64,000 nucleotides of DNA from Oscillospiraceae bacterium. GTDB lineage: Bacteria; Bacillota; Clostridia; Oscillospirales; Oscillospiraceae. Both the position numbers and the translations under genes were made by a program. Location: NCBI GenBank assembly GCA_910575265.1, contig CAJTEA010000012.1, forward strand, positions 1 to 64,000, read 5' to 3'. Numbering within the stretch: the stretch's first letter is position 1; each line of letters begins with the position of its first letter. Under the pieces are notes generated by a model. The model saw only the letters and a list, made by a program, of their open reading frames with translations. It ran no database searches and was not told the origin of the DNA. This document shows positions 11,594 through 39,127 of this stretch, in pieces.

Positions 11594-11601
11594 CAGCATA
11601 T

Positions 11602-13616
<2,015 letters not shown>

Positions 13617-14412: not shown

Positions 14413-14463
14413 TATGCTTGCTCAGATAGTGTTCCCTCTGTTCCGCTTCTCCTGTTCTCCACG

Positions 14464-15399: not shown

Positions 15400-15519
15400 C
15401 TGGCAGCCACCTTTCAAAGAGCCTTTATATCATTATAAATTGTTGCCATACTGATGTCAATAATTAAGTGGTAAGATTACGGTGTAAGTAAAACAAGACC
15501 AAAGAAAATGGAGGGTATT

Positions 15520-16143
15520 ATGTTCACAGTCTACATTTATGTCCTTGACACCTTGGCCGATTGGGAGTTGGGCTATGTTACAGCGGAATTGAACTCCGGG
15601 CGGTTTTTCAAAAAGGACGCGCCCGAAGTATCAGTCAAAACAGTTGCTATCTCAACGGAGCCGGTCAAAACAATGGGCGGTCTGACGATCGTTCCCGATT
15701 GCACGATCCGCGAAATTGCAGTAAGTGAAAAGAGTGTCCTGCTGCTGCCTGGAGCAAACACATGGGACGATCCTAGGTATAGCGTTATGATGAAAAAAGC
15801 CGGTGAGTTGCTTTCTGCGGGCGCTCTGGTATGCGCTATCTGTGGGGCCACTGTCGCACTGGCGAATGCTGGCCTGCTGGATCAGCGTCTGCACACCAGT
15901 AATGGAGCCGGATACCTTGAAATGGTTTCTCCCAGCTATAAAGGGCAGAAGTTCTTTGTTGACGTACCATCTGTGGTAGACCGTAACCTGATTACCGCAA
16001 GTTCCACTGGGGGCTTATTGTGGGCAAAGCAGATTATTGAACGGTTAGATGTTTTCCAGCACAACACACTGGAAGCGTGGTATGCGTATTTCAGCACTGG
16101 TGAGGCGCAACATTTCTTTACCCTTATGCAAACTTTGGCGTAG
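15520..16143 (+). CDS. DJ-1/PfpI-family protein
   Basis: About 207 residues with the class I glutamine-amidotransferase-like fold. The nucleophile-elbow cysteine is in AICGAT (about residue 108), and a glutamate near the N-terminus (DWELG, about 16) would pair with it as in DJ-1. Family members act on reactive carbonyls, as chaperones or as hydrolases; which applies here cannot be read from sequence. ATG 15520 follows GGAGGGTATT; an ATG 12 nt earlier overlaps that ribosome site. It is probably regulated by the divergent WYL protein. A terminator follows closely. Confidence 0.85.
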   Translation: MFTVYIYVLDTLADWELGYVTAELNSGRFFKKDAPEVSVKTVAISTEPVKTMGGLTIVPDCTIREIAVSEKSVLLLPGANTWDDPRYSVMMKKAGELLSAGALVCAICGATVALANAGLLDQRLHTSNGAGYLEMVSPSYKGQKFFVDVPSVVDRNLITASSTGGLLWAKQIIERLDVFQHNTLEAWYAYFSTGEAQHFFTLMQTLA

Positions 16144-16162
16144 ACACTAATACAGTTTTAAC

Positions 16163-16212
16163 CTGCCAGCAGTGGCAGCAAAGAAAAAAACCGCTGCTGG
16201 CAGAAAATTTTT
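16163..16212 (+). terminator. Terminator of the DJ-1-family gene
   Basis: CTGCCAGCAG (16163-16172) pairs with CTGCTGGCAG (16194-16203), followed by AAAATTTTT. The loop is A-rich. Confidence 0.75.
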
Positions 16213-16324
16213 CATGCCTTTTTGTACGGTGGTTTTCAAAAAATGAAAGCCGCCGTTCTTTTATCCTCAAAAGGAGCGACGCGGTAACACTGACAGATAC
16301 GGCGGCTGACAGGAGGCAGTCGCT

Positions 16325-16432
16325 ATGAAGTACACAGCCATTCGACACAATCTGACATTCTTTGGTGTATCAAAAAAAGCCCGGCCTCCACCGGGGACTA
16401 TTGCGGCCACGAGTATGTACTATACAGTGTAG
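16325..16432 (+). CDS. 35-codon small ORF, possible leader peptide
   Basis: ATG 16325 has AGGAGG with 8-nt spacing, a textbook ribosome site, and the 35-residue product (MKYTAIRHNLTFFGVSKK at its start) ends at TAG 16432. It is followed 26 nt later by a terminator-like hairpin and then by the sigma-factor gene. No family function is known to me. The layout resembles leader-peptide attenuation as described for Tn916, but that is inference. Confidence 0.5.
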   Translation: MKYTAIRHNLTFFGVSKKARPPPGTIAATSMYYTV

Positions 16433-16457
16433 GTTCTGCACAGTATTGTTTATCTTT

Positions 16458-16492
16458 CGCCCGGCGGGTCTGTGACCTGTCGGGCGGTTTTT
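16458..16492 (+). terminator. Intrinsic terminator or attenuator before the sigma-factor gene
   Basis: CGCCCGGCGGGT pairs, with two mismatches, with ACCTGTCGGGCG and ends in TTTTT. It lies between the small ORF and the sigma-like gene, so it could terminate or regulate downstream expression. Confidence 0.6.
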
Positions 16493-16634
16493 ATCGTTCC
16501 CAGCGGCCCGAAAATTTTTCTTCACTTTTTTCTCTGCGGAAAGCGGTTTTGCGCGCAAAACCTGTGCCGCTGAACGCTCTGTTAGCGAAAAGGGAAAGTA
16601 CCACCACCATCCCCCGACGAAAGGGGGTGAGAAG

Positions 16635-17060
16635 ATGGAAACCAACCCCCGCGACTATGGCGAACGGTGCAGATTTGATGCCTTTTGCAAGACCGTATTG
16701 AAGCATGAGGCAATCGACTACATCCGGGAAATGAAGCGGCGGGCCAGCCGGGAAATGTCCTTGGAGCGGTTGCCCCAAACGGCGATGGACAAGCTGTGTT
16801 CGGCGGACAGTTACCCCAGCGACAGCTATGTGTTTTCGTACTGCGGGTACAATCTGCCGATCAGAAGCCAACAGGTGGCCGACGCCTTTGCCGGTCTGCC
16901 GGAGCTGGAGCAAAGCATTTTGATTTTGCGCCTGGTGCTGGATTTGACAGACACCGAGATTGGCAAGGCTCTTGGTCTGTCTCGGAGTGCCGTCCAGCGG
17001 CGCAGAACAAAATCGCTGAATGTCCTGCGGACAAAGTTGACAGCGAGGAAAGGAGGTTAG
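16635..17060 (+). CDS. Element-encoded sigma-70-family RNA polymerase sigma factor
   Basis: About 141 residues. The C-terminal half is a clear sigma region 4: FAGLPELEQSILILRLVLDL, then DTEIGKALGLSRSAVQRRR with its helix-turn-helix. The N-terminal half (KTVLKHEAIDYIREMKRR) resembles a reduced region 2. Proteins of this size are standard in Firmicutes conjugative transposons (Tn916 Orf7-like), where they control excision or transfer genes. A GGGGG-GTGA ribosome site precedes the ATG. The next gene starts 6 nt after the stop. Confidence 0.85.
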   Translation: METNPRDYGERCRFDAFCKTVLKHEAIDYIREMKRRASREMSLERLPQTAMDKLCSADSYPSDSYVFSYCGYNLPIRSQQVADAFAGLPELEQSILILRLVLDLTDTEIGKALGLSRSAVQRRRTKSLNVLRTKLTARKGG

Positions 17061-17065
17061 CGCCC

Positions 17066-17302
17066 ATGAAGAGCCGGAAGTACAAGGGCCGTGAACTGCT
17101 GCCGCTGGCGGTGAGCGATGCGGCCCAAGCTGGGGATAGCGATGCTGTGGAGCAGGTCTTGCGGTACTACGAAGGCCACATAAACAAGCTCTGCACCCGG
17201 ACGGTCTACGACGAAAGCGGCTGTCCCCACGCCTGCCTGGACGAGTACATGAAAAGCCGCCTTGAAAACAAACTGATCCGCGCCATTCTCGGCGTGAATT
17301 GA
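17066..17302 (+). CDS. Tn916 Orf8-like helix-turn-helix protein
   Basis: 78 residues (LLPLAVSDAAQAGDSDAVEQ, VLRYYEGHINKLCTRTVYDE). Matches the helix-turn-helix proteins paired with the small sigma factor in conjugative transposons, which act together on element regulation. ATG 17066 has AGGAGG 9 nt upstream, inside the end of the sigma gene, so translation is coupled. The family assignment is by resemblance and synteny. Confidence 0.75.
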   Translation: MKSRKYKGRELLPLAVSDAAQAGDSDAVEQVLRYYEGHINKLCTRTVYDESGCPHACLDEYMKSRLENKLIRAILGVN

Positions 17303-17388
17303 TAACCGGCCCCGGCTGGAGGGGAACAGCTTACCCTTTCCCTGTTCCTCCCGCCTGCGGGCCTTGTCCTGCGTCTTGGAAAGGGGAA

Positions 17389-17571
17389 ATGTCTTTGACA
17401 AAAAATCAACCCAATAAAACTGATTGTGAAATTGAACTTCCACAAGCCATCATAGAAACCTTTGCCCGGTTCCTCGTCCCGGAGATACGGAAATATTACG
17501 ATAGTGAACAGGGCCAGCGAGAGTTTGCGGAGTGGCAGGCAACACACAGGGAGGGAATCAGCGAGAGTTAA
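17389..17571 (+). CDS. Small conserved conjugative-element protein
   Basis: 60 residues, acidic (ELPQAIIETFARFLVPEIRK, then YYDSEQGQREFAEWQ). Similar small proteins follow the sigma/Orf8 pair in Clostridia elements and often precede the integrase or recombinase gene. GGAAAGGGGAA precedes the ATG. No function is known. The element is interrupted soon after by an IS256-type insertion. Confidence 0.6.
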   Translation: MSLTKNQPNKTDCEIELPQAIIETFARFLVPEIRKYYDSEQGQREFAEWQATHREGISES

Positions 17572-17624
17572 AGCGATATACAAAAGCAGGGAACAAGTCA
17601 CAAATCGAGACCCCATAAAAATCC

Positions 17625-19050
17625 GTGTAAACGACAAACTCTGACAGAATAAAAAGGATCGACTCAGTCAAGAATGGAAATAACAACCAATTCAAGAAGG
17701 AGTCGAAGAAAATGAACGCAGCACCGCAGGAATTACTGAAAGAGTATGTCAAAAGTCAGCATTTCACCAGCACCACGGAGATCATGACGGCAATGAAGGA
17801 GATGTTCCGGGACGTGGTTCAGACAGCCATGGAGGTAGAGCTGGACGAGGAACTGGGGCGGGAGCGCTGCCAGCGAGCGGAGGCGTTGGAAACGGCGCCC
17901 AACTACCGCAATGGTTACTCCCGGAAGACGGTGAAGACACAGCTGGGGGAGATAGAGATCAAGGTTCCCCGGGACCGGAACAGCAGCTTCGAGCCAAAGA
18001 TTATCGGCAAGTACAGCCGGAACGCGGACGGGATGGAGGAGAAGGTCATCGGTCTCTACGCCAGCGGGATGAGCCAGCAGGACATCGCCGAACAAATCAA
18101 GGAACTGTACGGCGTGGAGATATCCCCGGAACTGGTGACGAAGATCACGGAGAAGATCATGCCGGAGGTAACGGCGTGGCAAAACCGGCCGCTGGAAGCG
18201 GTCTATCCCTTCGTCTTTATGGACGCCATCCACTACAAGGTGAAAGAGGAACGCCGCTATGTGACCAAGGCGGCATACGTGGTCTTGGGCATCACCATGG
18301 ACGGCAGAAAGGACATCCTTGGTGTGTGGATCGGGGAGCATGAGAGCAGCAAATTTTGGCTTTCTGTGCTGAATGACCTCAAATCCAGGGGAGTTTTGGA
18401 TGTATATCTGTTCTGCACTGACGGGCTGTGCGGCATGATGCAGGCCATCCAGGCGGTGTATCCGAACAGCCGTTTACAGCGCTGCATCGTCCACCAGATC
18501 CGTTCTTCCACTCGTTTCGTTAGCTGGAAGGACATCAAAAAAGTAGTGGCTATCTGAAGAAAATTTATACCGCTGTGACTCTGGAGGAGGCAGAATACGC
18601 CCTGCTCCAGTTCGGGGAAACATGGCGGAAACAGTACCCCTCCTGTGTGAAAAGCTGGGAGGAAAACTGGGAAGTTTTAAGCACCTTTTATGAATACCCG
18701 CCGGAGATTCGGAAAATCATATACACGACCAACATCATTGAAGGCCTGAACCGCCAGTTCCGGCAAATCACGAAAAACAAGCCCAGCTTCACCAGCGACG
18801 ATTCCCTGCGCCGGATGCTCTATCTGGCTGCTCAGCGCATCACGAAGCGCTGGCGGACCAGGTGCTCGAACTGGGACCTGGTCCTCAGCCAGCTCCAGCT
18901 CATGTTTGCGGACCGGGCTGTTGGCTGAGCCCTCCCTTTAGAATATCCCGGCGGGCCGGACGGCATTCACGCCTCCGGCGCACATACCGCCTGGCCCGCC
19001 GGGATGATGTGTCAGGAAGGGCTTCAGCCATCATTCTATTCTGTTTTCAC
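17625..19050 (+). mobile_element. IS256-family insertion sequence, ends approximate
   Basis: The transposase frame is flanked by weakly matching terminal sequences: GTGTAAACGACAAA at 17625 and, on the other strand, GTGAAAACAGAATA ending at about 19050. No matching 8-9-bp target duplication is seen, so the limits are uncertain. A shorter copy of the same right end occurs at about 22,170-22,427. Confidence 0.5.
17712..18928 (+). pseudogene. IS256-family transposase, broken by a 1-nt frameshift
   Basis: A mutator-type DDE transposase of about 405 residues across two frames. The first frame (17712-18557) has the N-terminal DNA-binding region, FMDAIHYKV (first Asp) and FCTDGLCGM (second Asp). It then ends at KKVVAI-stop. 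The second frame (from about 18555) resumes with LKKIYTAVTLEEAEYALLQF and carries NIIEGLNRQFR (catalytic Glu) to the normal end. Inserting one G at about 18555 would restore VVADLKKIY. IS256 elements are not known to use programmed frameshifting, so this copy is probably dead, or it is a sequencing error. Confidence 0.85.
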
Positions 19051-27048: not shown

Positions 27049-27567
27049 GCTCATTCTTCATAAATCCCATGAATGGCAGTAGTCATGTCAAAGACACCCT
27101 CGGGCAGCTTGACCCGCTGGCTGGCGCGCTTGTTTATGATCTCATACAGCAGCTTCAGAATGAAGTCGTCGGAGAACGGGGCTCCAGCACCTCCAGCTCA
27201 CACAGGTCCAGGTAGCGCCGGGCGGTATCCGCTTCCTCGTTCAGACGCTGTGCCCCTTGGACTTCACGTTGGCCTCGTACTGAAAAATAAGAAAGAAGCG
27301 GTGCCGGATAGCGTCGCTGGCCACCCCCTCGCCGATTTGAGTGATGTTGTCCTCAATCATCTCCCGGCAGCACTCGTTGTCCTCCGCCTCCGCGTACTCC
27401 CGCATCCGATCCACATAGGCGGCGGTGCCGGCGGGGAGAGCGCGGGCCGTCTCCAGGCCGTCGGCGGGGACGCCGAAGGCGATGTACTTGGAGCGGACAA
27501 TGCCGTTGTCGCTCCGGGCGATCTGCCGTTTCAGCATATCCACATATTCCCCCCGGATACTGTCAAC
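27049..27567 (-). pseudogene. Conjugation-gene remnant fused behind a transposase fragment
   Basis: The first piece (SIRGEYVDMLKRQIARSDNG, SKYIAFGVPADGLETAR) resembles the N-terminal part of VirB4-like ATPases of Clostridia elements. It passes directly into sequence like EDNITQIGEGVASDAIRHRF and FLIFQYEA, also seen in such elements, with frameshifts near 27,240 and 27,185, then FDMTTAIHGIYEE and stop at 27049. I cannot tell whether these were one gene or two. It reads in the same direction as the VirB4 remnant beyond the MNT/HepT insertion. Confidence 0.5.
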
Positions 27568-28143
27568 GCCGTCGTGGGCCGGCTGGGGCCGGACAAAGAA
27601 CTCGATCCCCAGCTTCTCCAATTCCCGGTGGGCCAGAGGAAAATCGTAGGCCGAGTCCGCAGCGGCAGCCCGCGGTGGAATTACCCTTTGATGGACAACT
27701 TCCACCTGTTCCAGATAGGGCACCATATCATGGGCATCCCCCGGCGTCACGGTCAAGCCGATGATAATCCCATGATCGCTGTCCAGGGTCTGGTGGGAAA
27801 GGCAGTATTGGCCCCGCGGCTTCCCTGGCCGTTTCATATGCCCGGCCTCCGGGTCTGTCCGGCTGACCCGTTTCTTCGTTCGCCGGTTGTCTTTTTTGAT
27901 CTGCCGGGTACGCTTCTTCCGCCGCCGCAGCTGGCTGATTGCACTGCGGTCCGGCATCCGTTCATCCAGGTCAATACCTAGATACCAACGAAGTGCGTTG
28001 CTGTCCGCACACCTTTCCTCGATTTGACGCTCCGATGGGATGCCGTAGAGAAAGCCCACCAGCAGATATTTTACTATTACCACTGGGTCTATAGGCGGGC
28101 GCCCATATCTCCAGCTGTATAGATGGGAGGTCTCCTCATACAC
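27568..28143 (-). pseudogene. IS1182-like transposase fragment
   Basis: The N-terminal domain typical of IS1182/IS5-group transposases is clear (GRPPIDPVVIVKYLLVGFLY, RWYLGIDLDERMPDRSAIS). After about residue 75 the sequence jumps to IKKDNRRTKKRVSRTDPEAG, so a stretch containing the first catalytic Asp seems deleted. The part with SAYDFPLAHRELEKLGIEFF follows, and the frame then runs straight into conjugation-gene sequence at about 27,567. It is an internally deleted, C-terminally truncated copy. Confidence 0.7.
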
Positions 28144-28211: not shown

Positions 28212-28490
28212 ACTGTGTTCCCTCCGTATTTGCGATAGATTGATAGATCGTGTCAAAACCGTGTTGGAGAAATTCGTTTGGGGACAAGCCCATTGTCTTT
28301 TGGATGTAGTCCTTTTTATTCGCTGTCAAAAGAATCAGTCCCGATAGCATCCCCCAACATGAAAATGATGTTGAGTTGCCTTGCTATATCCAGCCGCCTT
28401 TGCTATGTCATCCATAGACGTTGACGAAATACCTCTTTCAGCAAATAATTGAGAGGCTACAGATGCAATGTTTTCCCGATGTACACTTCT
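28212..28490 (-). pseudogene. TetR-family regulator remnant
   Basis: ASVASQLFAERGISSTSMDD with IAKAAGYSKAT is a TetR N-terminal helix-turn-helix. The frame is then lost. A separate minus-strand stretch (TANKKDYIQKTMGLSPNEFL, to a stop at 28212) may be its C-terminal end. Most of the ligand domain is gone. Confidence 0.55.
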
Positions 28491-28754
28491 TGGCTCCTTT
28501 AGTGCCAAGGCGATGGGCCGCCAGTACATCCCTGTATGTTCCATGACGATGCGAATGTCCCCGCCGCCGCCCACCACCGATTCAGCTTGCTGTGTGACAC
28601 GAATGCACGGAGTGTTTCCGTTCTTCAACCTGCGCAAATCGAACGCCGCAATGGGAGGGCCGGCTGACAGTTTGCCAAAACGAGCGTGACAGCTCAGGCA
28701 GGGCATTGTCAGTCCGGTTCCCTCCCATTGTAGCTTGGGTGTGGGCCGCCGCAT
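28491..28754 (-). pseudogene. IS110-like transposase fragment fused to the TetR remnant
   Basis: GDIRIVMEHTGMYWRPIALA (about 28,500-28,570) matches the conserved segment of IS110-family transposases. The upstream part of the frame is not recognisable. It continues in frame into the TetR helix-turn-helix, which shows a deletion or insertion junction at about 28,490. Confidence 0.55.
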
Positions 28755-28986: not shown

Positions 28987-30105
28987 CTAAGAGCGTGGAG
29001 CCAGCGCCTGGATCAACCGCAGAATATCCTCCAGGGTACGGCGGTAATACACCGCGGGAGATTCCGGATATGAACGGAAATCAACTGCCGGCCGGTCTGT
29101 GCCGAAGATAGCGGTTACGCCAAGCTTGTAGGCCTCCTCCGCGCCAGAGCCGATACCTCCCACAATGGCGATCAAGGGAATACCGTGGATCCGTCTGGCA
29201 ATACCGGAGATGACCTTTCCGTGAACGCTCTGGGAGTCAATGCGTCCCTCGCCGGTTATGGCCAGGTCCGCCCCCCGCAAACGGCGGTCAAAATCCACCA
29301 CATCCAGCACCGCCTCAATGCCCGGCTTTAGCTCCGCCCCTAAAAACGCGACGCAGCCCGCACCCATGCCTCCGGCGGCGCCTGCCCCCGGCATATCGCT
29401 CAAGCTGTGCCGGAACCGGCTGTCCAAATGATGCAGCCCAGCGTCCAGCCGCTCCGCCATAGCCCGATCCGCCCCCTTCTGAGGGCCGAAGACATGCGCC
29501 GCCCCTCTTGGGCCGCAGAGCGGGTTATCCACATCGCACATTACGGTGATTCGGACGCCCTCCAGCAGCCGCTTAGTTTGTGTGCCGTCGATACAGGCGA
29601 TTTGGCGCAGAGTTTCGCCGGTGGGGACAAACGCTTCCCCATTTTCGCGGAGGAATCTGGTCCCCAGCGCGGCGGCGCAGCCGCAGCCGCCATCGTTGGT
29701 GCAACTGCCGCCCAGACCCAGGAGAATTTCCCTGCAGCCGTTTATAACAGCGTGACGGATCAGCTCTCCCACCCCATAGGTGGTGGTTTTTTCCGGATTC
29801 AGCCGTCCCTCTGCCAGATTCAGGCCGGCGGCGGCAGCCATTTCAAGGATTGCCGTTTCCCCGCTGCGCCCGTAGACAGCCCGGACAGCCTCTCCATAGG
29901 GACCGGAGACGGAAACGGTAACCGGAACGGCCCCTATAGCCTCTATGAAGCAGGCCACCGTTCCTTCTCCCCCATCCGCCACCGGAATAGCTTCCACCTG
30001 GCAATCAGGAAAGAAGCGGCGAATGGACTCGCGGGCAATGCCGCAGATCTCCAGGCTGGACAGCGTACCCTTAAAGGAATCAGAAATAACGACACATTTT
30101 TTCAT
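28987..30105 (-). CDS. Glycerate kinase (GlxK/GarK family)
   Basis: 372 residues, normal length. Phosphorylates D-glycerate, in this family usually to 2-phosphoglycerate, which enters glycolysis. Family motifs: ISDSFKGTLSS at the N-terminus, PVADGGEGTV (about 42-51), LGLGGSCTNDGGCGCAAALG (about 126-145), VMCDVDNPLCGPRGAAHVFG and TGEGRIDSQS. It is the last gene of the minus-strand operon and overlaps the dehydrogenase gene by 4 nt, so it probably handles glycerate made by that enzyme. Confidence 0.93.
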   Translation of the reverse strand: MKKCVVISDSFKGTLSSLEICGIARESIRRFFPDCQVEAIPVADGGEGTVACFIEAIGAVPVTVSVSGPYGEAVRAVYGRSGETAILEMAAAAGLNLAEGRLNPEKTTTYGVGELIRHAVINGCREILLGLGGSCTNDGGCGCAAALGTRFLRENGEAFVPTGETLRQIACIDGTQTKRLLEGVRITVMCDVDNPLCGPRGAAHVFGPQKGADRAMAERLDAGLHHLDSRFRHSLSDMPGAGAAGGMGAGCVAFLGAELKPGIEAVLDVVDFDRRLRGADLAITGEGRIDSQSVHGKVISGIARRIHGIPLIAIVGGIGSGAEEAYKLGVTAIFGTDRPAVDFRSYPESPAVYYRRTLEDILRLIQALAPRS

Positions 30106-31076
30106 AGCTTTTGCTGATTGACTACATTGACAGGCCTTCCGGCCAGATACGCTTTCACGTTGGATACCGCGCAGTCCATGATCCGCTGGCGGCTCTCCCT
30201 GGGGGCCCAGGAGATGTGGGGGGTGATGATGCAGTTTTTGGCATTCAGCAGGGGGTTGTCCGCCCGGATGGGCTCAGTGTAGACCACATCCAGACCGGCG
30301 GCCCCTATTTTGCCGGAGTTCAGGGCGTCGGCCACATCCTGCTCGTTGATAAGCTGGCCCCGCGCGTTGTTAATGAGGATGACCCCGTCCTTCATCCTGG
30401 CAATGGAGTCCTTGTTGATAAACCCGGTGTTTTCCGGGGTCAGGTTGCAGTGGAGGGTGATGACATCGGACTGAGCCAGGAGGGTGTCCAGATCCACATA
30501 CTCGGCAATCTCCCGGCCACTGTCGTTGGGGTAGATGTCATAGGCCAGCACCTTCATGCCCAAGGCTCTGGCAACGCGCCCCTCGGCCTGACCGATCCGG
30601 CCAAAGCCCACAACGCCCATGGTTTTGCCCTCCAGCTCGATGAGAGGGTAGTCCCAGTAGCACCAGTCGATGCAGTTGGCCCAGTTGCCAGCGTGGACGG
30701 AGGCGTCGTGGTGGCCGATGTGGTGGCACACCTCCAGCAGCAGGGCGATGGAGAACTGGCTCACCGATGCGGTGCCGTAGGTGGGGACATTGGTGACGGG
30801 GATGCCCTTTTCCGCGGCGTAGGCAAAGTCCACCACGTTGTAGCCGGTAGCCAGCAGGGAGATGAACCTCATGCCAGGGCAGGAGTCAATCACCCTTTTG
30901 GTAATGGGGGTTTTGTTGGTGAATACCACCTCCGCGTCTCCGATGCGGGCGATGGCCTCCTCCTCATCGGTAAGGCTGGTTCGGTCATAGACTGTCAGCT
31001 CCCCCAGCCTGCCCAGCTCCTCCCAGCTCAGGTCGCCGGGATTCTCTGTATAACCGTCCAACACTACAATTTTCAT
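30102..31076 (-). CDS. D-2-hydroxyacid dehydrogenase (glycerate/hydroxypyruvate type)
   Basis: 324 residues. NAD-binding Rossmann motif [20 protein letters not shown] (about 150-170) followed by Asp (YDIYP). Catalytic Arg in NNARGQL (about 235), Glu in [10 protein letters not shown], and catalytic His in [11 protein letters not shown] (about 287). The family reduces 2-oxoacids to D-2-hydroxyacids; pairing with a glycerate kinase suggests hydroxypyruvate to D-glycerate, or glyoxylate to glycolate. It overlaps both neighbours by 4 nt. Substrate choice cannot be settled from sequence. Confidence 0.88.
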
Positions 31077-31570
31077 GGCAAGACCTCCTCCTTTTTCTTT
31101 GCCAGATAGGCCAAAAGGCCGCCAGCATCCATCATGTCCTGCAGGAAGGGAGGGAATCCTCCCGCCTGATACGTCCGACCCTGGGTTAGATTTCGGATTT
31201 TGCCGGAGGCCAGATTAATTTCCAGCTTGTCCCCCGCCCGTATTTCAGAGGCCGCCTCCTGACATTCTAAAATAGGCAATCCAATGTTGATGGCGTTCCG
31301 GTAAAAAATGCGGGCGAAGGATGCGGCTATCACGCAGCTTATGCCGCTGCTCAGGATTGCGATAGGAGCATGCTCCCGGGATGAGCCGCAGCCAAAATTT
31401 TCACCCGCCACAATGAAATCCCCGGGTTGAACCCGCGCGACAAACTCGCGGTCCAGGTCCTCCATGCAGTGCGCAGCCAAGTCCTCGCGTTTTGACAGAG
31501 ACAGATAACGGGCTGGGAGGATAACATCCGTATCCACATTATCCCGGTACTTAAATACAGTTCCACCCAT
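31073..31570 (-). CDS. LeuD/DmdB-like hydratase small subunit
   Basis: About 165 residues, the swivel domain of aconitase-superfamily enzymes. Motifs: [16 protein letters not shown] near the N-terminus and [14 protein letters not shown] (about 60-73). ATG 31570 has AGGAGG 9 nt upstream. It works with the large subunit encoded 4 nt upstream. Automatic pipelines will call it isopropylmalate isomerase, but no leuA or leuB is here. Next to a methylitaconate-isomerase-like and a dimethylmalate-lyase-like gene it is more likely a dimethylmaleate-type hydratase. Confidence 0.87.
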
Positions 31571-31574
31571 TGTA

Positions 31575-32834
31575 TCACACCTCCTCTGGAGAAACAACTG
31601 TGCCGGCTACAGCACAGGCGGCCGCCACCGCGGGACTTGCCAGATAGATTTCAGAATCCCTGGCCCCCATACGTCCCACAAAATTACGGTTGGTGGTGGA
31701 AACGCAGCGCTCATGGTCTGACAGAACGCCTACGTGTCCCCCGTTGCAGGGACCGCAGGTGGGCATACTGACTGTAGCACCCGCTTGGATAAATAGCTCC
31801 AGCAGCCCCTCGGCTATTGCCTGAAGATAGATTTCCTGGGTGGCGGGGATGATAACGCACCGCACATGCTCCGAAATTTTTCGGCCCTTCAAAATCCGGG
31901 CGGCCATGCGCAGGTCAGAGATGCGTCCGTTGGTGCAGCAGCCAATCACAACCTGATCCACCCGCAGCCCGCGGAAGTGCTCAACCGGTTTTACGTTGGA
32001 AGGAAGAAACGGCGCGGCCAGCACCGGACGCAGCTGAGAGAGGTTGATATCAATGGTGCATACATAGCTGGCGTCCGTGTCGGCCTCTACCGGGACAAAG
32101 GGGCGGCTGACCCGGCCGGACAAATAGTCCAGCGTGTTCTGATCTACTGGGAAGATCGCGTTTTTTGCCCCTGCTTCAATAGCCATGTTGCAGATGGTAA
32201 AGCGGTCATCCATGGGGATACCGGCAATGGCCTCTCCGGTAAACTCAATGCTTTTATAGCGGGCCCCATCCACCCCGATCATTCCGATCAGGGATAAAAT
32301 CAGGTCTTTTCCTCCAACATATTCCGAAAACCGGCCAGTCAGGTTAACCAGGATGGCCGCCGGAACCTTGAACCAGTTCTTGCCGGCGTACATACCGGCA
32401 GCCATATCTGTAGAGCCGACACCCGTAGAGAAGGCCCCCAGCGCGCCGTATGTACAGGTATGAGAATCGGCGCCGATAATCAGCTCACCCGGAGCCACAA
32501 AGCCCTGCTCCGGCAGCAGAGCATGCTCAATTCCCATGCGCCCGCCGTCATAAAAGTGGGAAATTCCCATTTGCTGGGCAAACTGCCGCGCCAGCGCGCA
32601 GTTTTGGGCCGACCGGATGTCCTTGTTCGGGGCAAAGTGGTCCATCACCAGAACAATTTTGTTCGGATCAAACACCCTCTTCAGCCCATATTTCTCCATC
32701 TCATGAATGGCAATGGGGGCAGTTACGTCGCTCCCCATCACCAGATCCAGCGCCCCATAGACCAGATCCCCGGCCTGTACCTCCTGCCTGCCGCAGTGCC
32801 GCGCAAAGATTTTCTGTGTCATTGTCATTCCCAC
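31575..32834 (-). CDS. LeuC/DmdA-like hydratase large subunit
   Basis: 419 residues, 4Fe-4S aconitase-superfamily large subunit, which adds water to a double bond of a di- or tricarboxylate. Cluster cysteines appear in [10 protein letters not shown] (about 300) and [13 protein letters not shown] (about 360). The N-terminal [14 protein letters not shown] and [20 protein letters not shown] motifs are typical. GTG 32834 has AGGAG 9 nt upstream; ATG 6 nt later is an alternative. The operon context (isomerase, lyase, TRAP transporter) argues for a catabolic role such as dimethylmaleate or methylaconitate hydration rather than leucine synthesis. Confidence 0.88.
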
Positions 32835-32859
32835 AGAAATTAACTCCTTTCCAGGAACC

Positions 32860-33765
32860 TCAGTTCTGCTTCATATTTTCCTTGTATTCATCCACGCGGT
32901 AGCTTGCCTCCATGGCGGTCAGCGCGTCCATGCCCACAATGGCGTTATACTCGCTGAAGGTGGTCATTATTCCGGTATCTTCCTTGGTCTTGCGGTTGGC
33001 CTTCAGCTCGGCCAACATGCTCCGCATCGCCCGGGCGGCGGTAAACACCGTGCCCACCGGGTAAATGACGACGCTGAATCCCAAAGCCTGAATTTCATCG
33101 GCGGACATCACAGGAGTTTTGCCGAACTCCACCTGATTGGCAAATTTATATACGCCGGGAATGGACCCTACAATCCTCATTTCATCCGCATTTCTCAACG
33201 CGTCCGCATAAATGATGTCGGCGCCCGCATCCCGGTAGGCCTCCAGGCGCCGGACTACCTCATCCATATTGTGGGTGGCCCGGCAATCTGTGCGGGCGAT
33301 AATCAGCATGTCATCCCTGGCCTCTACCGCGGCCCGGATTTTTTCTACGTGCTCTTCCATGGAAATTACCGCCTTCTTTTCCATGTGACCGCAGCGTTTT
33401 GGAAATACCTGGTCCTCCAGATGGACGGCGGCCATGCCAGCCCGCTCAAACTCCCGTACCGTCCGATAGACGTTCAGCGGGTTGCCGTATCCAGTGTCAA
33501 TGTCCCCCAGGAGCGGGATATTCAGTATACTGTTCATATTTGCGCATACGGACGCCATCTCGTTCATAGTCATCAGGCCATAGTCGGGCTGACCCAGGAT
33601 TGAGCCAGAGGCGCCAAAGCCTGTCATAAAGGCGGCTTCAAAGCCGGCCTGCTCAATCAGACGGGCGGACAGGCAGTCATAGCAGCCCGGCGCCATGATG
33701 ATTTCAGGATTTTTCAGCCGCTCTCTCAGCACCTGAGCGCCCGATTGCTGTTGTGTATTTCTCAT
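32860..33765 (-). CDS. PEP mutase/isocitrate-lyase family lyase (dimethylmalate- or methylisocitrate-lyase-like)
   Basis: 301 residues. Conserved motifs: GCYDCLSARLIEQAGFEA near the start, GDIDTGYGN (metal-binding Asp, about 87), HLEDQVFPKRCGHMEKK with the catalytic loop Cys (about 118-134), and IIARTDCRA. Members split 2-hydroxy-dicarboxylates to pyruvate, glyoxylate or succinate plus a second acid. Between the isomerase and hydratase genes, dimethylmalate to propionate plus pyruvate is the best analogy (Eubacterium barkeri), with methylisocitrate as another. Spaced 11 nt from the isomerase gene. Confidence 0.88.
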   Translation of the reverse strand: MRNTQQQSGAQVLRERLKNPEIIMAPGCYDCLSARLIEQAGFEAAFMTGFGASGSILGQPDYGLMTMNEMASVCANMNSILNIPLLGDIDTGYGNPLNVYRTVREFERAGMAAVHLEDQVFPKRCGHMEKKAVISMEEHVEKIRAAVEARDDMLIIARTDCRATHNMDEVVRRLEAYRDAGADIIYADALRNADEMRIVGSIPGVYKFANQVEFGKTPVMSADEIQALGFSVVIYPVGTVFTAARAMRSMLAELKANRKTKEDTGIMTTFSEYNAIVGMDALTAMEASYRVDEYKENMKQN

Positions 33766-33776
33766 ACAATCACTTC

Positions 33777-34931
33777 CTAAATATTTGATTTTAAAATGGC
33801 GCGGGGTACATATACATACCCCTCCATGATCCGGCGGGCAGTTCGCCCAAAGACGGCCCGGGTAATTTTTCCGTCCTGAACCGTGGTGTCACATTCGATT
33901 ATGCCCCCCGGATGCCCAATGCGTACCAGCCCGCTGTCCCGCCTGCCCCGCAGGTCATAGAGCAGGGTCCCAGGCGTAACGGCGGCGCATCCGGTACATA
34001 CCGTGGCGGTGCCTGAGTAAGTCTTATGCATGATCTGCATGAACATATCCCGGGCCACAAAGTCAATCTCCTCCGGGATCACTGGCGTGCCGTCGATATG
34101 GCTGCGGTATGGCTGAGGCGGCGCTACGAACGCTACCATGGGGACGGCGCGGACCCGTTCCCGGGCGGTTGCCCGGTCGGCAATCCCCATCCTTTCCGCC
34201 GCAATGCAGCGGATATTTTCCAGCAATTCCAGCAGCTCCGGCCTGGAATCCACCTGGGCGGGCGCCTCCGTTCCGGTAAGCCCCAGGTCAGCGGCCCGCA
34301 CAAAAACCATGGGGCTGGCCGCGTCTACCATGGACACGGTAAGCGGGCCGAATCCCTCCACGTGAATTGTATCAACCGGGTTTCCCGTAGGAAGCAGGGC
34401 GCCGGTTTTGGCCCCCACCGTCCCCGCCAGGTTTAAACCAATTCGGGCGCCAGTACCCGGCACGCCGTGAATTTTGTAATCTCCCAGCACTTTCGGCTTT
34501 CCGTCGATTACCGGGACCTCCGCTTGAAACACACTGTCCGTGTTGGTGTTGTAGATCCGCACCACGGTAACCGGCTCCTCTGCCCTCACAAGGCCCTGGG
34601 TGATGGCAAAGGGACCCACGGCGGAGGAAATATTGCCGCAGTTGCTGGAATAATCCACAAAGGGCGTGCGGATGTCCACCTGCCCAAAGGTGTAGTCCAC
34701 ATCGGCATCAGGACGGCTGGACCGGGCAATAATGGCCAGCTTGCTGGTCAGCGGATCAGCCCCACCCAGCCCGTCAATCTGCCGGTTATCCGGACTGCCG
34801 AATATGGACAGAATGACCCGGTCCCGCGCCTGAGGATCCGTCGGCAAATCGTTCTCCAGCAAAAAAACCGCCTTGCTGGTCCCGCCCCGCATAATAACAC
34901 AGGGGATGTGCTCCATTTCCGGGTTGTACAT
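33777..34931 (-). CDS. PrpF/3-methylitaconate-isomerase-family protein
   Basis: 384 residues with the diaminopimelate-epimerase-like double fold of the PrpF/Mii family: IPCVIMRGGTSKAVFLLEND at the N-terminus, IDGLGGADPLTSKLAII, YSSNCGNISSAVGPFAI (active-site Cys about 105) and the second half with VCTGCAAVTPGTLL. Known members shift a double bond in 3-methylitaconate, 2-methylaconitate or 4-oxalomesaconate. ATG 34931 follows GGAGGG. Its place between the TRAP genes and the lyase suggests it performs the first step on the imported acid. Confidence 0.9.
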   Translation of the reverse strand: MYNPEMEHIPCVIMRGGTSKAVFLLENDLPTDPQARDRVILSIFGSPDNRQIDGLGGADPLTSKLAIIARSSRPDADVDYTFGQVDIRTPFVDYSSNCGNISSAVGPFAITQGLVRAEEPVTVVRIYNTNTDSVFQAEVPVIDGKPKVLGDYKIHGVPGTGARIGLNLAGTVGAKTGALLPTGNPVDTIHVEGFGPLTVSMVDAASPMVFVRAADLGLTGTEAPAQVDSRPELLELLENIRCIAAERMGIADRATARERVRAVPMVAFVAPPQPYRSHIDGTPVIPEEIDFVARDMFMQIMHKTYSGTATVCTGCAAVTPGTLLYDLRGRRDSGLVRIGHPGGIIECDTTVQDGKITRAVFGRTARRIMEGYVYVPRAILKSNI

Positions 34932-34953
34932 TGATCCATCCCTCCAAATCCAT

Positions 34954-36255
34954 CTAATTTTTCACAATAGAAACCGCATGCTCAGGCAGGAACGTAACGA
35001 TCTGTGGGAAAGCCATGAATATAATCAGTATGGCAATCGCCAGCGCGAGATAGCTCCACAGATGGCGGTTGCATACGCTCTCTATTCCAACCTTGCGCAA
35101 TCCCGCAGCCACATAAAGATTGAGGCCGACTGGAGGGGTGCAAAGTCCGATTCCCAAATTAATAATCATAATGACGCCAAAGGCTACATTGCTGATCTGA
35201 TATGTGGCAAGGCAGGGCGCAAACAATGGGGCTAAAATCATAACGGCAGGAACCGTATCCATAATACAGCCTACAATCAGCAGAAGGATTGTGACCAGCA
35301 CCCAGAAAGCAACCTTATTACCCGCAACCGAAATAATAAATCGGGCCAGATTAGAGGTTACATTTTCACGCGTCAGCACATAGGCAAACGCAGTGGCGGC
35401 GCACACAATAAACATAATTTGGCAGCTGGTTTTCACGGAACCCTTTAGGATATCACGGATGGTGCTAAAATCCAGCTCATGGTAGATAAATTTCCCTACA
35501 ATCAGGCCATAAACAATAGCAACTGCCGCCGACTCTGTAGGAGTAAAAATCCCTCCATAGATACCGCCCAGAATAATGACCGGCATCAGCAGCGCCCATA
35601 TGGCATCCCAAAACGTCAGCCACAAATTCTTCAGGCTGAACTTGTGGATTACAATTTCACCGCGGTGCTTTGTGCCATAAATGACAGAGTAGACCGCCAT
35701 CCCCAGCGCCAGCATAATGCCGGGGATAATGCCTCCCAAAAATACGTCTGTAACAGAAATCCCAATTGCCATACCGTAGATCACCATGGGGATACTGGGG
35801 GGAATGATAATTCCCAAAAAGCCTGCCGCGGCAACCGTGGCCAGGGAAAACCGTTCGTCGTATCCTTCCTTAATCATAATCGGGACGATAATCGCCCCGA
35901 TTGCCGCAACTGTAGCGGCAGAGGACCCAGAGATAGCGCCAAAAAAAGCGGAGGCAATAAAGGCCGCAATGGCTAGGCCGCCGGGCAGCCAGCCTAAAAT
36001 CGCGTTAAACAAATTGACCAGCCGCTTTGCAACGCCGCCCTTTTCCAGCAAGCCGCCCGCAATCATAAAAAACGGAATTGCCATCAGGCTATAGGAGTCC
36101 GCTGCTGTAAAAAACTTTTGCGCTACCACCATCACAGGGATGTTGGTAAAACCGAATAAATAGATAAAAGAAGAAAAGGTGAGCGAAACCGCCACAGGGA
36201 CGCCCATCAGCAGCAGAAAGATAAAACTCGCAAATAGAACAAAATAGACGCTCAT
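34954..36255 (-). CDS. TRAP transporter large permease (DctM-like)
   Basis: 433 residues, highly hydrophobic, with about 12-13 membrane segments from the first residues (FVLFASFIFLLLMGVPVAVS) to the C-terminus. Conserved loops include FFMIAGGLLEKGGVAKRLVN and IPPSIPMVIYGMA. It forms the sodium-driven channel part of a tripartite transporter for carboxylic acids. Overlaps dctQ by 4 nt and lies 22 nt upstream of the isomerase gene, so the imported compound is likely the isomerase substrate. Confidence 0.93.
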   Translation of the reverse strand: MSVYFVLFASFIFLLLMGVPVAVSLTFSSFIYLFGFTNIPVMVVAQKFFTAADSYSLMAIPFFMIAGGLLEKGGVAKRLVNLFNAILGWLPGGLAIAAFIASAFFGAISGSSAATVAAIGAIIVPIMIKEGYDERFSLATVAAAGFLGIIIPPSIPMVIYGMAIGISVTDVFLGGIIPGIMLALGMAVYSVIYGTKHRGEIVIHKFSLKNLWLTFWDAIWALLMPVIILGGIYGGIFTPTESAAVAIVYGLIVGKFIYHELDFSTIRDILKGSVKTSCQIMFIVCAATAFAYVLTRENVTSNLARFIISVAGNKVAFWVLVTILLLIVGCIMDTVPAVMILAPLFAPCLATYQISNVAFGVIMIINLGIGLCTPPVGLNLYVAAGLRKVGIESVCNRHLWSYLALAIAILIIFMAFPQIVTFLPEHAVSIVKN

Positions 36256-36782
36256 TGCTCCACGCGCTCCTCTCCGTCCCAGCTCTGAATACCGGTATAT
36301 TCCGCAACCATGTTAGATATCTGCGCAACAGTCGCCAAAATAAACCCGATGAAAATAACGCTGTAAATGACAATCATCGGGATATGCATCGCCGGAGAAG
36401 ACTGATTGCCGTTCATAGTCTTGGCTACAAACAGGTAACAGGCATAATCAATAGCCAGATATGCGACCAACGTTATAACATCAGAGAAGATATGGGCCGC
36501 TTTTTGCAGACTTTTAGGAAGCATATTGATAAATAGATCTACCCCAAGATGCACATGGTCCCGTACCGCCACTGGCATCGCGATAAAGATTCCTGTAATC
36601 ATCAGATAGCGGGAGGCCTCCTCGCTCCAAAGAATCGGTTCGTGGAGAACGTAACGATAAACCACTGTAGTGAGCACAAAGATACACATAAAAACAAATG
36701 CAACGGAAGCAATTGCGGTTTCAACACGATCCGCATACTGGCCAATTTTTAAAATAACGTTTCCTTTGGGGGATTTATCCAT
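36252..36782 (-). CDS. TRAP transporter small permease (DctQ-like)
   Basis: 176 residues with four predicted membrane helices (about 20-40, 55-75, 95-115, 130-155). WSEEASRYLMITGIF and DHVHLGVDLF are typical of DctQ. It joins the large permease to the binding protein. ATG 36782 follows GGAGGTTGCT. The next gene upstream, dctP, ends 77 nt away. Confidence 0.9.
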   Translation of the reverse strand: MDKSPKGNVILKIGQYADRVETAIASVAFVFMCIFVLTTVVYRYVLHEPILWSEEASRYLMITGIFIAMPVAVRDHVHLGVDLFINMLPKSLQKAAHIFSDVITLVAYLAIDYACYLFVAKTMNGNQSSPAMHIPMIVIYSVIFIGFILATVAQISNMVAEYTGIQSWDGEERVEQ

Positions 36783-36859
36783 AGCAACCTCCTATTTTAA
36801 CGCGATTTGTATCAAAATGGCCTTGGGTGAGAATCCACCCAAAGCCATAAGCCATTGGG

Positions 36860-37828
36860 TTAGAGATTCGAAATTACATCATTGATCGCATCAATATCAG
36901 CCCGCGCTACCTTTCCCCCTACAAAAGCGGGCCAGACCTGCTCTTTCATGATCTTCTGGCACTCCGCAATCTGCTCGTCGGTAAAGTAGATTACTTCAGT
37001 ACCCTCCGCCTTAAACGCGTCCAAAGACTCGGCTTCCATCTGGTCAATCAGCTCATACTCCACGGACGAGGCCGCCTCAGCCGCCTCATACATCAGCTTT
37101 TGATAGTCCTCAGGGAGAGTATCGTAGGTGCTCTTGCTCATAATGACCGGAATAGGGCTATAAATCATGTTTGCAATTGTGAAATTCTTCGCAATGGTAT
37201 GGATACTTGCCGTATAAATGGTAACGGGGGGATTGGAAGTGCCATCTACCGTTCCGTTCTGGATGGACGTAAACACCTCGCTCCAAGCCATGGGTACAGG
37301 ATTGATTCCCAAGGCTGTCATAGTAGCCATAAAAATGTCGTTTTCCATCACGCGAATGGTCAGGCCGGAAAAATCAGAGATTTCTTTCACCGGGCGCTTG
37401 CTTTGGATAATGTCAAACATGCCGGCCTCCCAAAAGGTCAGGCCAACCATATCCAGCGACTCTAATTCGGAGAGCTTTTGTTTTGCCCAATCGCTGTGCA
37501 ATACCTGGCGAGCCTGCTCCTTACTGGTAAACAGATAGGGAAGGTCAAACAAGGCAAAATCGTTGGTAAAGTTTGAGAGTGTAGCGGTGGCGCCAATGCC
37601 GATATCAACTGTTCCCATAGAGCAGCCTTCTTGCAGATCCCGTTCATTGCCGAGCTGTGAGTTGGGATAAACTTCAATACGCAAATCCCCGCCAGTTGCT
37701 TGCGCAAGATACTTGTCCATATACAGAAGAGATTGGTGGTAGGGGTGATTTTCAGCCAGTACATGACCGGCCTTCAGAACATAGGTAGCGTCAACCAGCG
37801 GATGTCTACAATCTTTCAGTATTCCCAT
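36860..37828 (-). CDS. TRAP solute-binding protein (DctP-like), 5' end lost
   Basis: Homology to DctP receptors runs from YVLKAGHVLAENHPYHQ to the normal C-terminus, including NSQLGNERDLQEG, FDLPYLFTSKEQAR, GLTIRVMENDIF (the acid-binding Arg region) and WSEVFTSIQNGTVDG. The signal peptide and lipoprotein Cys that should precede residue 15 are missing; the first residues (MGILKDCRHPLVDAT) are not a secretion signal and lie at the junction with the sigma54 regulator gene. As it stands the protein would stay in the cytoplasm and the transporter would lack its receptor. Confidence 0.8.
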   Translation of the reverse strand: MGILKDCRHPLVDATYVLKAGHVLAENHPYHQSLLYMDKYLAQATGGDLRIEVYPNSQLGNERDLQEGCSMGTVDIGIGATATLSNFTNDFALFDLPYLFTSKEQARQVLHSDWAKQKLSELESLDMVGLTFWEAGMFDIIQSKRPVKEISDFSGLTIRVMENDIFMATMTALGINPVPMAWSEVFTSIQNGTVDGTSNPPVTIYTASIHTIAKNFTIANMIYSPIPVIMSKSTYDTLPEDYQKLMYEAAEAASSVEYELIDQMEAESLDAFKAEGTEVIYFTDEQIAECQKIMKEQVWPAFVGGKVARADIDAINDVISNL

Positions 37829-39127
37829 CAGGGAATTCTATTTACCGACGGACAGGGCTGTATCTCCATCTGCAATGATTCTGCCGGAAAAATGCTGAAA
37901 ATGAACTGTAATCAGGTGATAGGCCGGCATATTTCACAGTTTTTTTCTTCCGAGGCGCTCAATACGGTCTTCCAGAGCCACGAGATTATCAACCACCTGA
38001 TGTGCAGCTTCGGTGGCGAACAGTACATCGCGTCGATCATCCCGATCCTTTCCAAGGAGGAGCTCAGCAATGTTATGATCAGTCTGGACAATGTCCGGAC
38101 CATTCAAAAACAAGAGCAGCACATCCGCAGCGCTCTGGCCCAGAAGGGTTTTGTAGCCAAGCACCACTTTGAGGACTACGAGAGCCGGAATCTCGCCTTT
38201 CACACTCTGGTCTCCACCGCAAAAAAATTTGCCAAAAGTACAGACTGCGTTATCATCCTGGGGGAAACCGGCACCGGAAAGGAGGTCTTCGCCCAATCCA
38301 TTCACAACTACAGCGCCCGGGCCAACAATCCCTTTGTGGCGGTAAACTGTTCCGCCATCAGCGAAACACTGCTGGAAAGCGAGCTGTTCGGCTACGATGA
38401 GGGGGCCTTTACCGGCGCAAAGAAGGGTGGAAAGCAGGGATACTTTGAGGTGGCGCACAAGGGGACCATCTTTTTGGACGAAATTGGGGAACTGAGCCTC
38501 CCGCTGCAAAGCAAGCTGCTGCGCGTGATTCAGGAGCGGCAGCTTATCCACGTTGGAGGCAGCAAGGTGATTAACTTTGATGTGAGGATTATTGCCGCAA
38601 CCAACCGCAACCTTTGGGAATTAGTCCAGCAGCAGAAATTCCGGGAGGACCTCTACTACCGGCTGGCCGTACTGGAGCTGGAAATCCCCCCTCTTCGCCA
38701 GCGGCAGGAGGACATTCGCCCCCTTTTCCTCTCCTTTGTTACCCACCGGGACAGCCCCCTGTCCACGCAGCTGGAGACGCGAAAGAGCCAGCTCGCCGCT
38801 GTCTTACGCTCCTACCACTGGCCTGGCAATGTGCGGGAATTGGAGAACTTCGCAAAAACCGTCATGACAATGCGGGATCCCGCAGACTCAATTGATGCCT
38901 TTTTAGAATTGATTCAGGGTGAAATACAGCGCCGAAAAAAACGCAGCGGGCAACTGCGTCATGACCAACCATTTTCAGACGAGGAAACCGTTTCTATTCC
39001 GTCTGCTGAACGGATAAAAATTCAGGAAGCACTCATTCAGACAGGCGGAAATTACACCAAAGCAGCCGCCGTTTTGGGAATTAGCCGGGTGACTCTATGG
39101 CGAAAATTAAAAGCAATGAACAAATGA
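37802..39127 (+). CDS. Sigma54-dependent activator, N-terminally truncated
   Basis: About 441 residues from ATG 37802. PAS domain at once (FQYSHQGILFTDGQGCISIC), then an AAA+ domain with Walker A GETGTGKE, the sigma54-contact motif GAFTGAKKGG, Walker B region GTIFLDEIGELSLPL and arginine finger region, and a Fis-type HTH at the end (NYTKAAAVLGISRVTLWRKL). Regulators of this type usually carry a PrpR-like sensor domain before the PAS; here the sequence upstream of about 37,800 is antisense dctP. It would normally drive the divergent catabolic operon from a -24/-12 promoter, but I see none in the remaining sequence. Confidence 0.85.
   Translation: MSTIFQYSHQGILFTDGQGCISICNDSAGKMLKMNCNQVIGRHISQFFSSEALNTVFQSHEIINHLMCSFGGEQYIASIIPILSKEELSNVMISLDNVRTIQKQEQHIRSALAQKGFVAKHHFEDYESRNLAFHTLVSTAKKFAKSTDCVIILGETGTGKEVFAQSIHNYSARANNPFVAVNCSAISETLLESELFGYDEGAFTGAKKGGKQGYFEVAHKGTIFLDEIGELSLPLQSKLLRVIQERQLIHVGGSKVINFDVRIIAATNRNLWELVQQQKFREDLYYRLAVLELEIPPLRQRQEDIRPLFLSFVTHRDSPLSTQLETRKSQLAAVLRSYHWPGNVRELENFAKTVMTMRDPADSIDAFLELIQGEIQRRKKRSGQLRHDQPFSDEETVSIPSAERIKIQEALIQTGGNYTKAAAVLGISRVTLWRKLKAMNK

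Follow-up and report, generated by a model that had tools for sequence, protein, structure and literature searches.

Two of the described systems closest to the locus studied here serve as a starting point. At the end of nicotinate fermentation in Eubacterium barkeri, the enzymes Mii, DmdAB and Dml isomerise, hydrate and cleave without coenzyme A (CoA). The itaconate/methylsuccinate cluster of Pseudomonas and Cupriavidus (ich, ict, ccl, mcd, mmgE) has a CoA-dependent core of CoA transferase, itaconyl-CoA hydratase and citramalyl-CoA lyase; according to the consulted part of a study of P. aeruginosa, the cluster also holds the lactonase PA0880 and a putative dicarboxylate transporter (PA0884-0886), its MmgE protein acts as a methylsuccinate isomerase, and itatartarate, a proposed dead end, arises when PA0880 opens 2-hydroxyparaconate (PMC9875883). 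We analysed a stretch of 64,000 nucleotides from an Oscillospiraceae bacterium (contig CAJTEA010000012.1, positions 1 to 64,000, hereafter the window), in which an earlier note made from the sequence alone had described a complete-looking operon for uptake and cleavage of an unsaturated dicarboxylate at 28987-39127. Our analysis slightly favours the reading that this locus is a beheaded copy of a sporadic catabolic operon that is under sigma-54 control and serves for a branched C4 dicarboxylate of itaconate type. The fuller operon of its relatives would be of a CoA-independent 'isomerise, hydrate, cleave' type, of which we infer every reaction and substrate.

The gene order given in the earlier note was confirmed. 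Based on Pfam and NCBIfam families, nine genes lie on the minus strand at 28987-37828 in the order DctP, DctQ, DctM, PrpF, lyase, LeuC, LeuD, D-2-hydroxyacid dehydrogenase (HADH) and glycerate kinase (GlxK), and a divergent sigma-54 activator ends at 39127 (Table 1). The spacings are 77 nt (DctP-DctQ), -4 (DctQ-DctM), 22 (DctM-PrpF), 11 (PrpF-lyase), 25 (lyase-LeuC), -4 (LeuD-HADH) and -4 (HADH-GlxK); between LeuC and LeuD the spacing is -23 from the listed TTG start and +4 from the ATG at 31570, which fits the relatives. Genes for the binding protein and for the small and large permeases of a tripartite ATP-independent periplasmic (TRAP) uptake system are all present, and every operon gene other than those of DctP and the regulator is open and full-length.

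We scanned a genome collection with PrpF and examined the best 80 of the 577 loci encoding a relative. Seven of these (L013-L019) encode a PrpF 71-85% identical to that of the window, and the next locus follows at 64%. The exact nine-gene order occurred in none of the 80 loci; eight of the nine genes in order occurred in at least two, L014 and L015 (Clostridium sp. 1001271st1 H5 and Marasmitruncus massiliensis), a lower bound because loci end at 10 kb or at contig ends. Since the order from DctP to HADH recurs in these two, the grouping of the genes is not due to chance, and the synteny for which the earlier note had proposed a search does exist in other genomes, although L014 has distant versions of DctP (40% identity) and DctQ (32%). 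L018 keeps PrpF to HADH, L013 and L017 keep PrpF to LeuD without HADH, and the contig of L019 stops within LeuD. L016, a 3.4-kb contig, has a PrpF of the clade and a 51% identical lyase running the opposite way, but is without LeuCD; we included it among the seven for the lactonase and excluded it for LeuCD. GlxK had no match in any of L013-L019, five of which (L013, L014, L015, L017 and L018) are long enough. Beyond these loci, lyase matches at E < 1e-70 were found in 11 of 400 genomes of the window's own family, its own included, with none above 47% identity besides itself; at the level of the order, the search at E < 1e-100 returned its own match alone (1/394 genomes), and within the genus PrpF matched in 8/64 genomes including its own, at best 53% besides itself. 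This sporadic distribution would fit horizontal spread; plasmid searches gave no match at 60% identity or more.

In L014 and L015 a sigma-54-type promoter, an MmgE/PrpD-family gene and a gene for an AiiA-like protein of metallo-beta-lactamase (MBL) fold stand between regulator and dctP. The matching points in regulator and DctP are 3447 nt apart in L014, 3421 nt in L015 and 16 nt in the window, and the absent stretch consists of the regulator N-terminus, the intergenic region, the MmgE/PrpD gene, the MBL gene and the DctP N-terminus. The regulators of L014 and L015 have 637-639 residues, with a PrpR_N domain in that of L014, and the window regulator aligns with them from their residue 192 (nt 37793), and with that of L018 from nt 37796. 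On the other side, the DctP alignment starts at window residue 14 (L014), 11 (L015) or 6 (L017) and is clear from residue 14 (nt 37789), and the codons above the clear homology are antisense of the regulator. These alignments place the junction at 37790-37796, give or take a few bases, and leave little or no room for an insertion. DctP of L014 and L015 has a longer N-terminus than that of the window, by eye of lipoprotein type; the open reading frame (ORF) of the window DctP shows no signal sequence by eye, and because an in-frame stop lies directly upstream of the ATG at 37828, no signal peptide is readable on it. By its sequence, the window DctP would not be the exported binding protein that defines a TRAP system.

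A perfect TGGCAYRN4TTGCW site occurs once in each of the intergenic regions of L014, L015 and L018 (3/3 close relatives examined), 83-100 nt before the first gene, with 0.01-0.10 expected in simple shuffles, and L136 has a site with one mismatch (0.30 expected). The vicinity of the window operon has no sigma-54-type site with up to one mismatch, and the whole 64 kb has a single one, at 20651, against 2.26 expected; the genome does encode a sigma-54 factor. The operon is thus not complete, as the earlier note had it: DctP has no signal peptide, the regulator has no N-terminal domain, and a stretch of about 3.4 kb, including two genes and a promoter-like site, is absent. Unless the assembly is wrong there, this copy is, by comparison with the relatives, one that lost their promoter site, sensor, two genes and export signal, and it probably works poorly or not at all.

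Table 1. Features of the operon and its divergent regulator in the window
Feature	Position	Strand	Remarks
Glycerate kinase GlxK	28987..30105	-	PF02595; 4-nt overlap with the dehydrogenase gene; no match in the operons of close relatives
D-2-hydroxyacid dehydrogenase HADH	30102..31076	-	Subfamily frequently neighbouring glycerate kinases
LeuD/DmdB-type small hydratase subunit	31073..31597	-	Loop ARYLSL; ATG at 31570 is the likely start
LeuC/DmdA-type large hydratase subunit	31575..32834	-	Additional to the leucine-type LeuC on contig C4, 62% identity
PEP-mutase/isocitrate-lyase family lyase	32860..33765	-	Closest to 2-alkylmalate/dimethylmalate lyases; motifs KRCGH, NQVEFGKTP
PrpF/Mii-type isomerase	33777..34931	-	Mii is the closest solved relative
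DctM, TRAP transporter large permease	34954..36255	-	Pfam, NCBIfam
DctQ, TRAP transporter small permease	36252..36782	-	Pfam, NCBIfam
DctP, TRAP binding protein	36860..37828	-	Clear homology from about 37789-37792; signal sequence of relatives absent
Junction, precise to a few bases	37789..37796		About 3.4 kb of relatives' DNA absent
Sigma-54 activator (PAS, AAA+, Fis-type HTH)	37793..39127	+	Without PrpR_N; first ATG within the homologous part at 37802

The MBL-fold gene is present in all seven close-relative loci, before dctP in L014, L015 and L017 (where the contig end cuts it) and before prpF in L013, L016 and L019; in L018 about 5.6 kb separate it from prpF. The MmgE/PrpD gene is present in four of them (L013, L014, L015 and L018), the contigs of the other three ending first, and the proteins of L013, L015 and L018 are 74-90% identical to that of L014. 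The closest solved structures of this protein are B. subtilis 'IRG1', iminodisuccinate epimerase and cis-aconitate decarboxylase. A study of methylsuccinate isomerase describes, in the part consulted, a catalytic Tyr in two isomerases and a one-base mechanism without this Tyr in the decarboxylase (PMC12290011); B. subtilis 'IRG1', the best match, is said in partly consulted literature to be without evidence of cis-aconitate decarboxylase activity. The column of the isomerase Tyr holds Tyr in 4/4 clade members and Met in the decarboxylase 12vw; on this ground a role as cis-aconitate decarboxylase, making itaconate from aconitate, was provisionally set aside. The MBL protein of L014 is closest to AiiA lactonase and 4-pyridoxolactonase, and those of L014 and L013 reached no curated cut-off. 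In L018 the stretch 2300-5871, which adjoins the operon, contains another MmgE/PrpD gene together with genes for an MBL protein and an SSF-type sodium symporter; prpF has no TRAP genes next to it there.

For PrpF the best solved relative is the 3-methylitaconate isomerase Mii of E. barkeri (E 5.7e-124), the methylcitrate-cycle PrpF 2pvz matches at 7.9e-79, and in the PrpF tree (95 rows) the window clade of 8 rows (support 99) is separate from both the nicotinate-type loci and 2pvz. The two best solved relatives of the lyase are petal death protein and then 2,3-dimethylmalate lyase, methylisocitrate lyases rank later, and the oxaloacetate decarboxylase 3b8i is a weaker match; in the lyase tree (61 rows) the seven clade members (support 100) are separate from nicotinate-type lyases. 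The label 'nicotinate-type' comes from gene order (PrpF, 1.4-kb gene, lyase), with neighbours read for L020, L028 and L047, the last of which we take, by eye, to be the E. barkeri nicotinate cluster. The trees are quick ones, and their deep order is unsure owing to long branches and some weakly supported forks; near-duplicates of the own genome (L001, L002, L094, L105, L106, L107, L110 and L135) and matches covering too little of the query were left out beforehand, and LeuC and lyase of the unannotated locus L109 (Cupriavidus) were included. From these comparisons, PrpF and the lyase appear closer to methylitaconate isomerase and dimethylmalate lyase than to the methylcitrate-cycle PrpF and PrpB, yet they form lineages of their own. 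The motif NQVE[FYG]GK[TS]P is found in 7/7 clade lyases and NMVEGG[RK]TP in nicotinate-type loci, and PrpB 1o5q (NITEFG) and 4iqd (NMTEFG) have Thr where the window lyase has Val; the motif was not located in four of 58 matches (L066, L072, L055 and L046), and the 58 include four copies of the window lyase itself. By motif and trees the window lyase and PrpF are not of the PrpB/PrpF type, and they do not reach the NCBIfam prpB and prpF cut-offs. A PrpB/methylcitrate reading was set aside on the lyase motif and the trees.

LeuC is above the isopropylmalate isomerase threshold (TIGR02083, 653.6 bits, cut-off 610.65), and LeuD is below the leucine-type threshold (TIGR02084, 237.2 bits, cut-off 245.85). 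The LeuD loop reads ARYL[SA]L in the window and five relatives, ARYLN or ARHLN in the leucine-type ones listed except L133, ARFLNT in L047 and PG[YF]AM in most other nicotinate-type loci. Leucine-type LeuC and LeuD stand together on contig C4, adjoining a LeuB-like ORF (named by eye), and the operon LeuD is not leucine-type by cut-off, by loop or by place among leucine genes. Kin of HADH at E < 1e-90 were found in 58 of 291 genomes of the class, its own included, and in 7 of the 29 best-scoring other loci a glycerate kinase (6 GlxK-type, 1 MOFRL-type) lies within 1.5 kb, on the same strand in 5/7. These neighbours would point to hydroxypyruvate/glycerate chemistry.

In the fuller form found in relatives, a PrpR-type activator with sigma-54 would turn on a -24/-12 promoter, a transporter, often of TRAP type, would import the acid or its lactone, and the AiiA-like lactonase would open the lactone. 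The MmgE/PrpD enzyme would then isomerise (or dehydrate) a branched succinate, PrpF/Mii would form a maleate by shifting the exo-methylene double bond, LeuCD would hydrate this maleate to a 2-alkylmalate, and the lyase would cleave it without CoA into a carboxylic acid and a 2-oxoacid, to be reduced by the D-2-hydroxyacid dehydrogenase. In the window, as glycerate kinase follows, the 2-oxoacid is plausibly hydroxypyruvate, which would finish as 2-phosphoglycerate. The order of lactonase, MmgE, PrpF, LeuCD, lyase and dehydrogenase makes chemical sense for an itaconate-type acid. A more specific form of this pathway, which we consider distinctly unlikely, would make the relatives' operon a CoA-independent route of gut Clostridia for itaconate-type acids and the lactone 2-hydroxyparaconate: the lactonase would form itatartarate, the lyase would split this into acetate and hydroxypyruvate, dehydrogenase and glycerate kinase would lead to 2-phosphoglycerate, and PrpF and LeuCD would feed in itaconate via citraconate and citramalate. 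Being 2-(hydroxymethyl)malate, itatartarate could be cleaved to hydroxypyruvate and acetate by a 2-alkylmalate lyase. The ligand of the TRAP system was also sought among solved binding proteins, where the best match is a DctP without a ligand in its name.

Several observations weigh against the preferred reading of a beheaded operon for an itaconate-type acid. No experimentally characterised enzyme of the clade was found, and faulty assembly may have produced the junction. Within the regulator gene, on the minus strand at 37871-37886, there is a sigma-54-like match with two mismatches, for which 0.05 are expected in the 201-nt stretch and 0.39 in 901 nt; it precedes the dctP ORF by 43 nt and might serve as a weak substitute promoter. 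L013 has a distant TRAP system (DctM 33%) and L018 has an SSF symporter instead of TRAP, so that guesses of the substrate from the transporter are weak. The Thr of the PrpB motif presumably helps to hold the third carboxylate, so that Val in its place suggests a dicarboxylate substrate; against this, the lyase of L016, a locus with a PrpF of the clade, has Thr. As GlxK is found in none of the five long-enough relatives, and two of them, L013 and L017, have no HADH, the end in glycerate may be a local feature. In the LeuC tree (80 rows), the clade, with 7 rows and a support of 99, branches off within the clostridial isopropylmalate isomerases; L047 and L044 make up another offshoot, and a third group comprises 20 of 24 nicotinate-type rows; moreover, L133, a leucine-clade neighbour, has a LeuD loop (ARYLAL) similar to that of the operon. 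The earlier note had named LeuCD among genuine leucine enzymes, together with the lyase among unrelated oxaloacetate decarboxylases, as the outcome that would speak against it. The half concerning LeuC was found; however, LeuC of L047 also lies inside the leucine-enzyme clade, so this placement does not decide function.

Among the alternatives, the junction near 37790 could be an assembly error, the living strain having the full operon with MmgE/PrpD, lactonase and promoter, and we regard this as quite possible, if below an even chance. The assembly is a draft of 111 contigs, 96% complete, and a single place cuts the ORFs of both DctP and regulator among genes that are otherwise intact. Against such an error, the MmgE/PrpD protein and the regulator N-terminus had no match elsewhere in the draft genome, and the MBL protein had only one partial match of 32%, in searches without a positive control in the same genome. 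It is somewhat unlikely that HADH and GlxK are a separate glycerate module downstream of a pathway to which neither belongs and whose lyase releases pyruvate or glyoxylate. The gaps in relatives noted above, for GlxK as for HADH, would agree with this, whereas LeuD, HADH and GlxK are joined by 4-nt overlaps and HADH comes after LeuD in L014, L015 and L018. The glycerate end proposed in the earlier note finds some backing in the glycerate kinases near 7/29 kin of HADH, although GlxK is found in 0/5 long-enough relatives.

The earlier note had likened the operon to the end of nicotinate fermentation, and the terminal segment of that pathway might be used alone: imported 3-methylitaconate would be converted to dimethylmaleate by isomerisation, hydration and cleavage would then yield propionate and pyruvate, and the dehydrogenase would give D-lactate. 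Kinship of PrpF with Mii and of the lyase with dimethylmalate lyase, its second-best solved relative, and homologues of all four enzymes in L047 uphold the likeness, but the window clade is its own lineage, outside the nicotinate-type clades, in the trees of PrpF, lyase and LeuC, the LeuD loop is unlike those of L047 and other nicotinate-type loci, kin of HADH neighbour glycerate kinases, and the relatives' lactonase and MmgE are not known to play a role in the nicotinate pathway, so we hold this version to be unlikely. A tricarboxylate of the trans-aconitate, citrate or 2-methylcitrate type as substrate, with PrpF isomerising, LeuCD acting as aconitase and the lyase giving glyoxylate or pyruvate plus succinate, seems very unlikely. 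It would follow the enzyme logic of the methylcitrate cycle with AcnD and PrpF, the consulted part of PMC11495376 describes aconitate isomerases of the PrpF superfamily (TarA/TbrA), and the lyase carries a KRCGH motif; yet where the two compared PrpB-type sequences have the Thr of N-x-T, the lyase has Val, PrpF is separate in the tree from the one methylcitrate-cycle PrpF, and LeuC is derived from a leucine enzyme.

Some further observations concern the neighbourhood and more distant loci. Recombinase- and transposase-like ORFs and fragments (named by eye) are dense on the left flank of the operon (1-28754), at about 158-3189, 11602-13398, 17712-18557, 27241-28143 and 28335-28754. A recent join had been considered from the step in G+C between transporter genes (44.8-48.5%) and enzyme genes (53.7-61.2%); the four relatives measured show this step too, so it gives no indication of a recent join. 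The closest locus is L017 for the TRAP genes of the window (81/69/82%), L013 for its PrpF and lyase (85/87%) and L014 for its regulator (65%), and these mixed nearest relatives look as if the operon had been assembled from parts. L066 (a betaproteobacterial metagenome-assembled genome, MAG) and L072 (an acidobacterial MAG) have PrpF-LeuC-LeuD-lyase-flavin oxidoreductase-MBL-MmgE in common at about 10000-18200; a 384-aa ORF without Pfam match lies further upstream in L066, and a similar ORF directly before prpF in L072. In the window's family, L136 and L137 have LeuCD, lyase and PrpF, followed by MmgE in L136, after a gap of about 1 kb, and in L137 (6902-7789) by a 295-aa ORF without Pfam match. 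A xylose-isomerase-like TIM-barrel gene stands beside kin of HADH in 10 of the 29 best-scoring other loci (L145, L147, L148, L149, L152, L153, L156, L159, L164 and L167). Outside the clade, L092:8000-21158 (a Leptotrichiaceae MAG) combines in one locus, at distances of some kb, LeuCD, PrpF, a relative of the dehydrogenase (60%) and a GlxK (43%), along with two transketolase-half-like ORFs (named by eye).

If the preferred reading of a fuller, CoA-independent operon in relatives is true, some gut Clostridia break down itaconate-kind branched dicarboxylates, which are antimicrobial and immune-active compounds, without CoA. As the window copy is without switch, two enzymes and export signal, the pathway would be better studied in relatives, and the presence of the fuller operon in sequenced, named strains makes direct testing possible. 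The window copy also shows that an operon can seem complete gene by gene and yet be without promoter, entry enzymes and export signal.

Among the papers listed in searches of open-licence PubMed Central, none was seen to describe this operon; a study of riboflavin degradation by gut Lachnospiraceae was considered and set aside, the part of its text consulted having no occurrence of PrpF, lyase, dimethylmal or TRAP (PMC12934955). Compared with the nicotinate end of E. barkeri, the four enzyme families are shared (identities to L047: PrpF 54, lyase 44, LeuC 59 and LeuD 60%), whereas the operon enzymes are tree lineages of their own, there are no mutase or nicotinate genes, a transporter, a dehydrogenase and, in relatives, lactonase and MmgE take their place, and LeuCD is a separate leucine-enzyme offshoot with a different LeuD loop. 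The likeness of the relatives' operon to the Pseudomonas/Cupriavidus cluster lies in accessory genes, namely dicarboxylate transporter, MmgE/PrpD with the isomerase Tyr and a lactonase-type gene, and not in core chemistry: none of the three CoA-dependent core enzymes is among the operon's genes, to which this search was confined, and the lactonase is a 127-aa dioxygenase-like protein in Pseudomonas and an MBL-fold protein in the relatives. With the 2-methylcitrate cycle (PrpB, PrpD, AcnD, PrpF, PrpR) the operon shares PrpF and a PEP-mutase/isocitrate-lyase family lyase, and its relatives share an MmgE/PrpD protein and a PrpR_N regulator; it differs in having no citrate synthase or AcnD, in a lyase and PrpF that stand apart and in a dicarboxylate-type motif. 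Leucine isopropylmalate isomerase is the closest system for LeuC, which falls in its clade at 62% identity to the genome's leucine-type LeuC; the operon pair differs in being a second copy in a catabolic-looking operon, with the loop ARYL[SA]L in place of the ARYLN/ARHLN of nearly all leucine enzymes compared.

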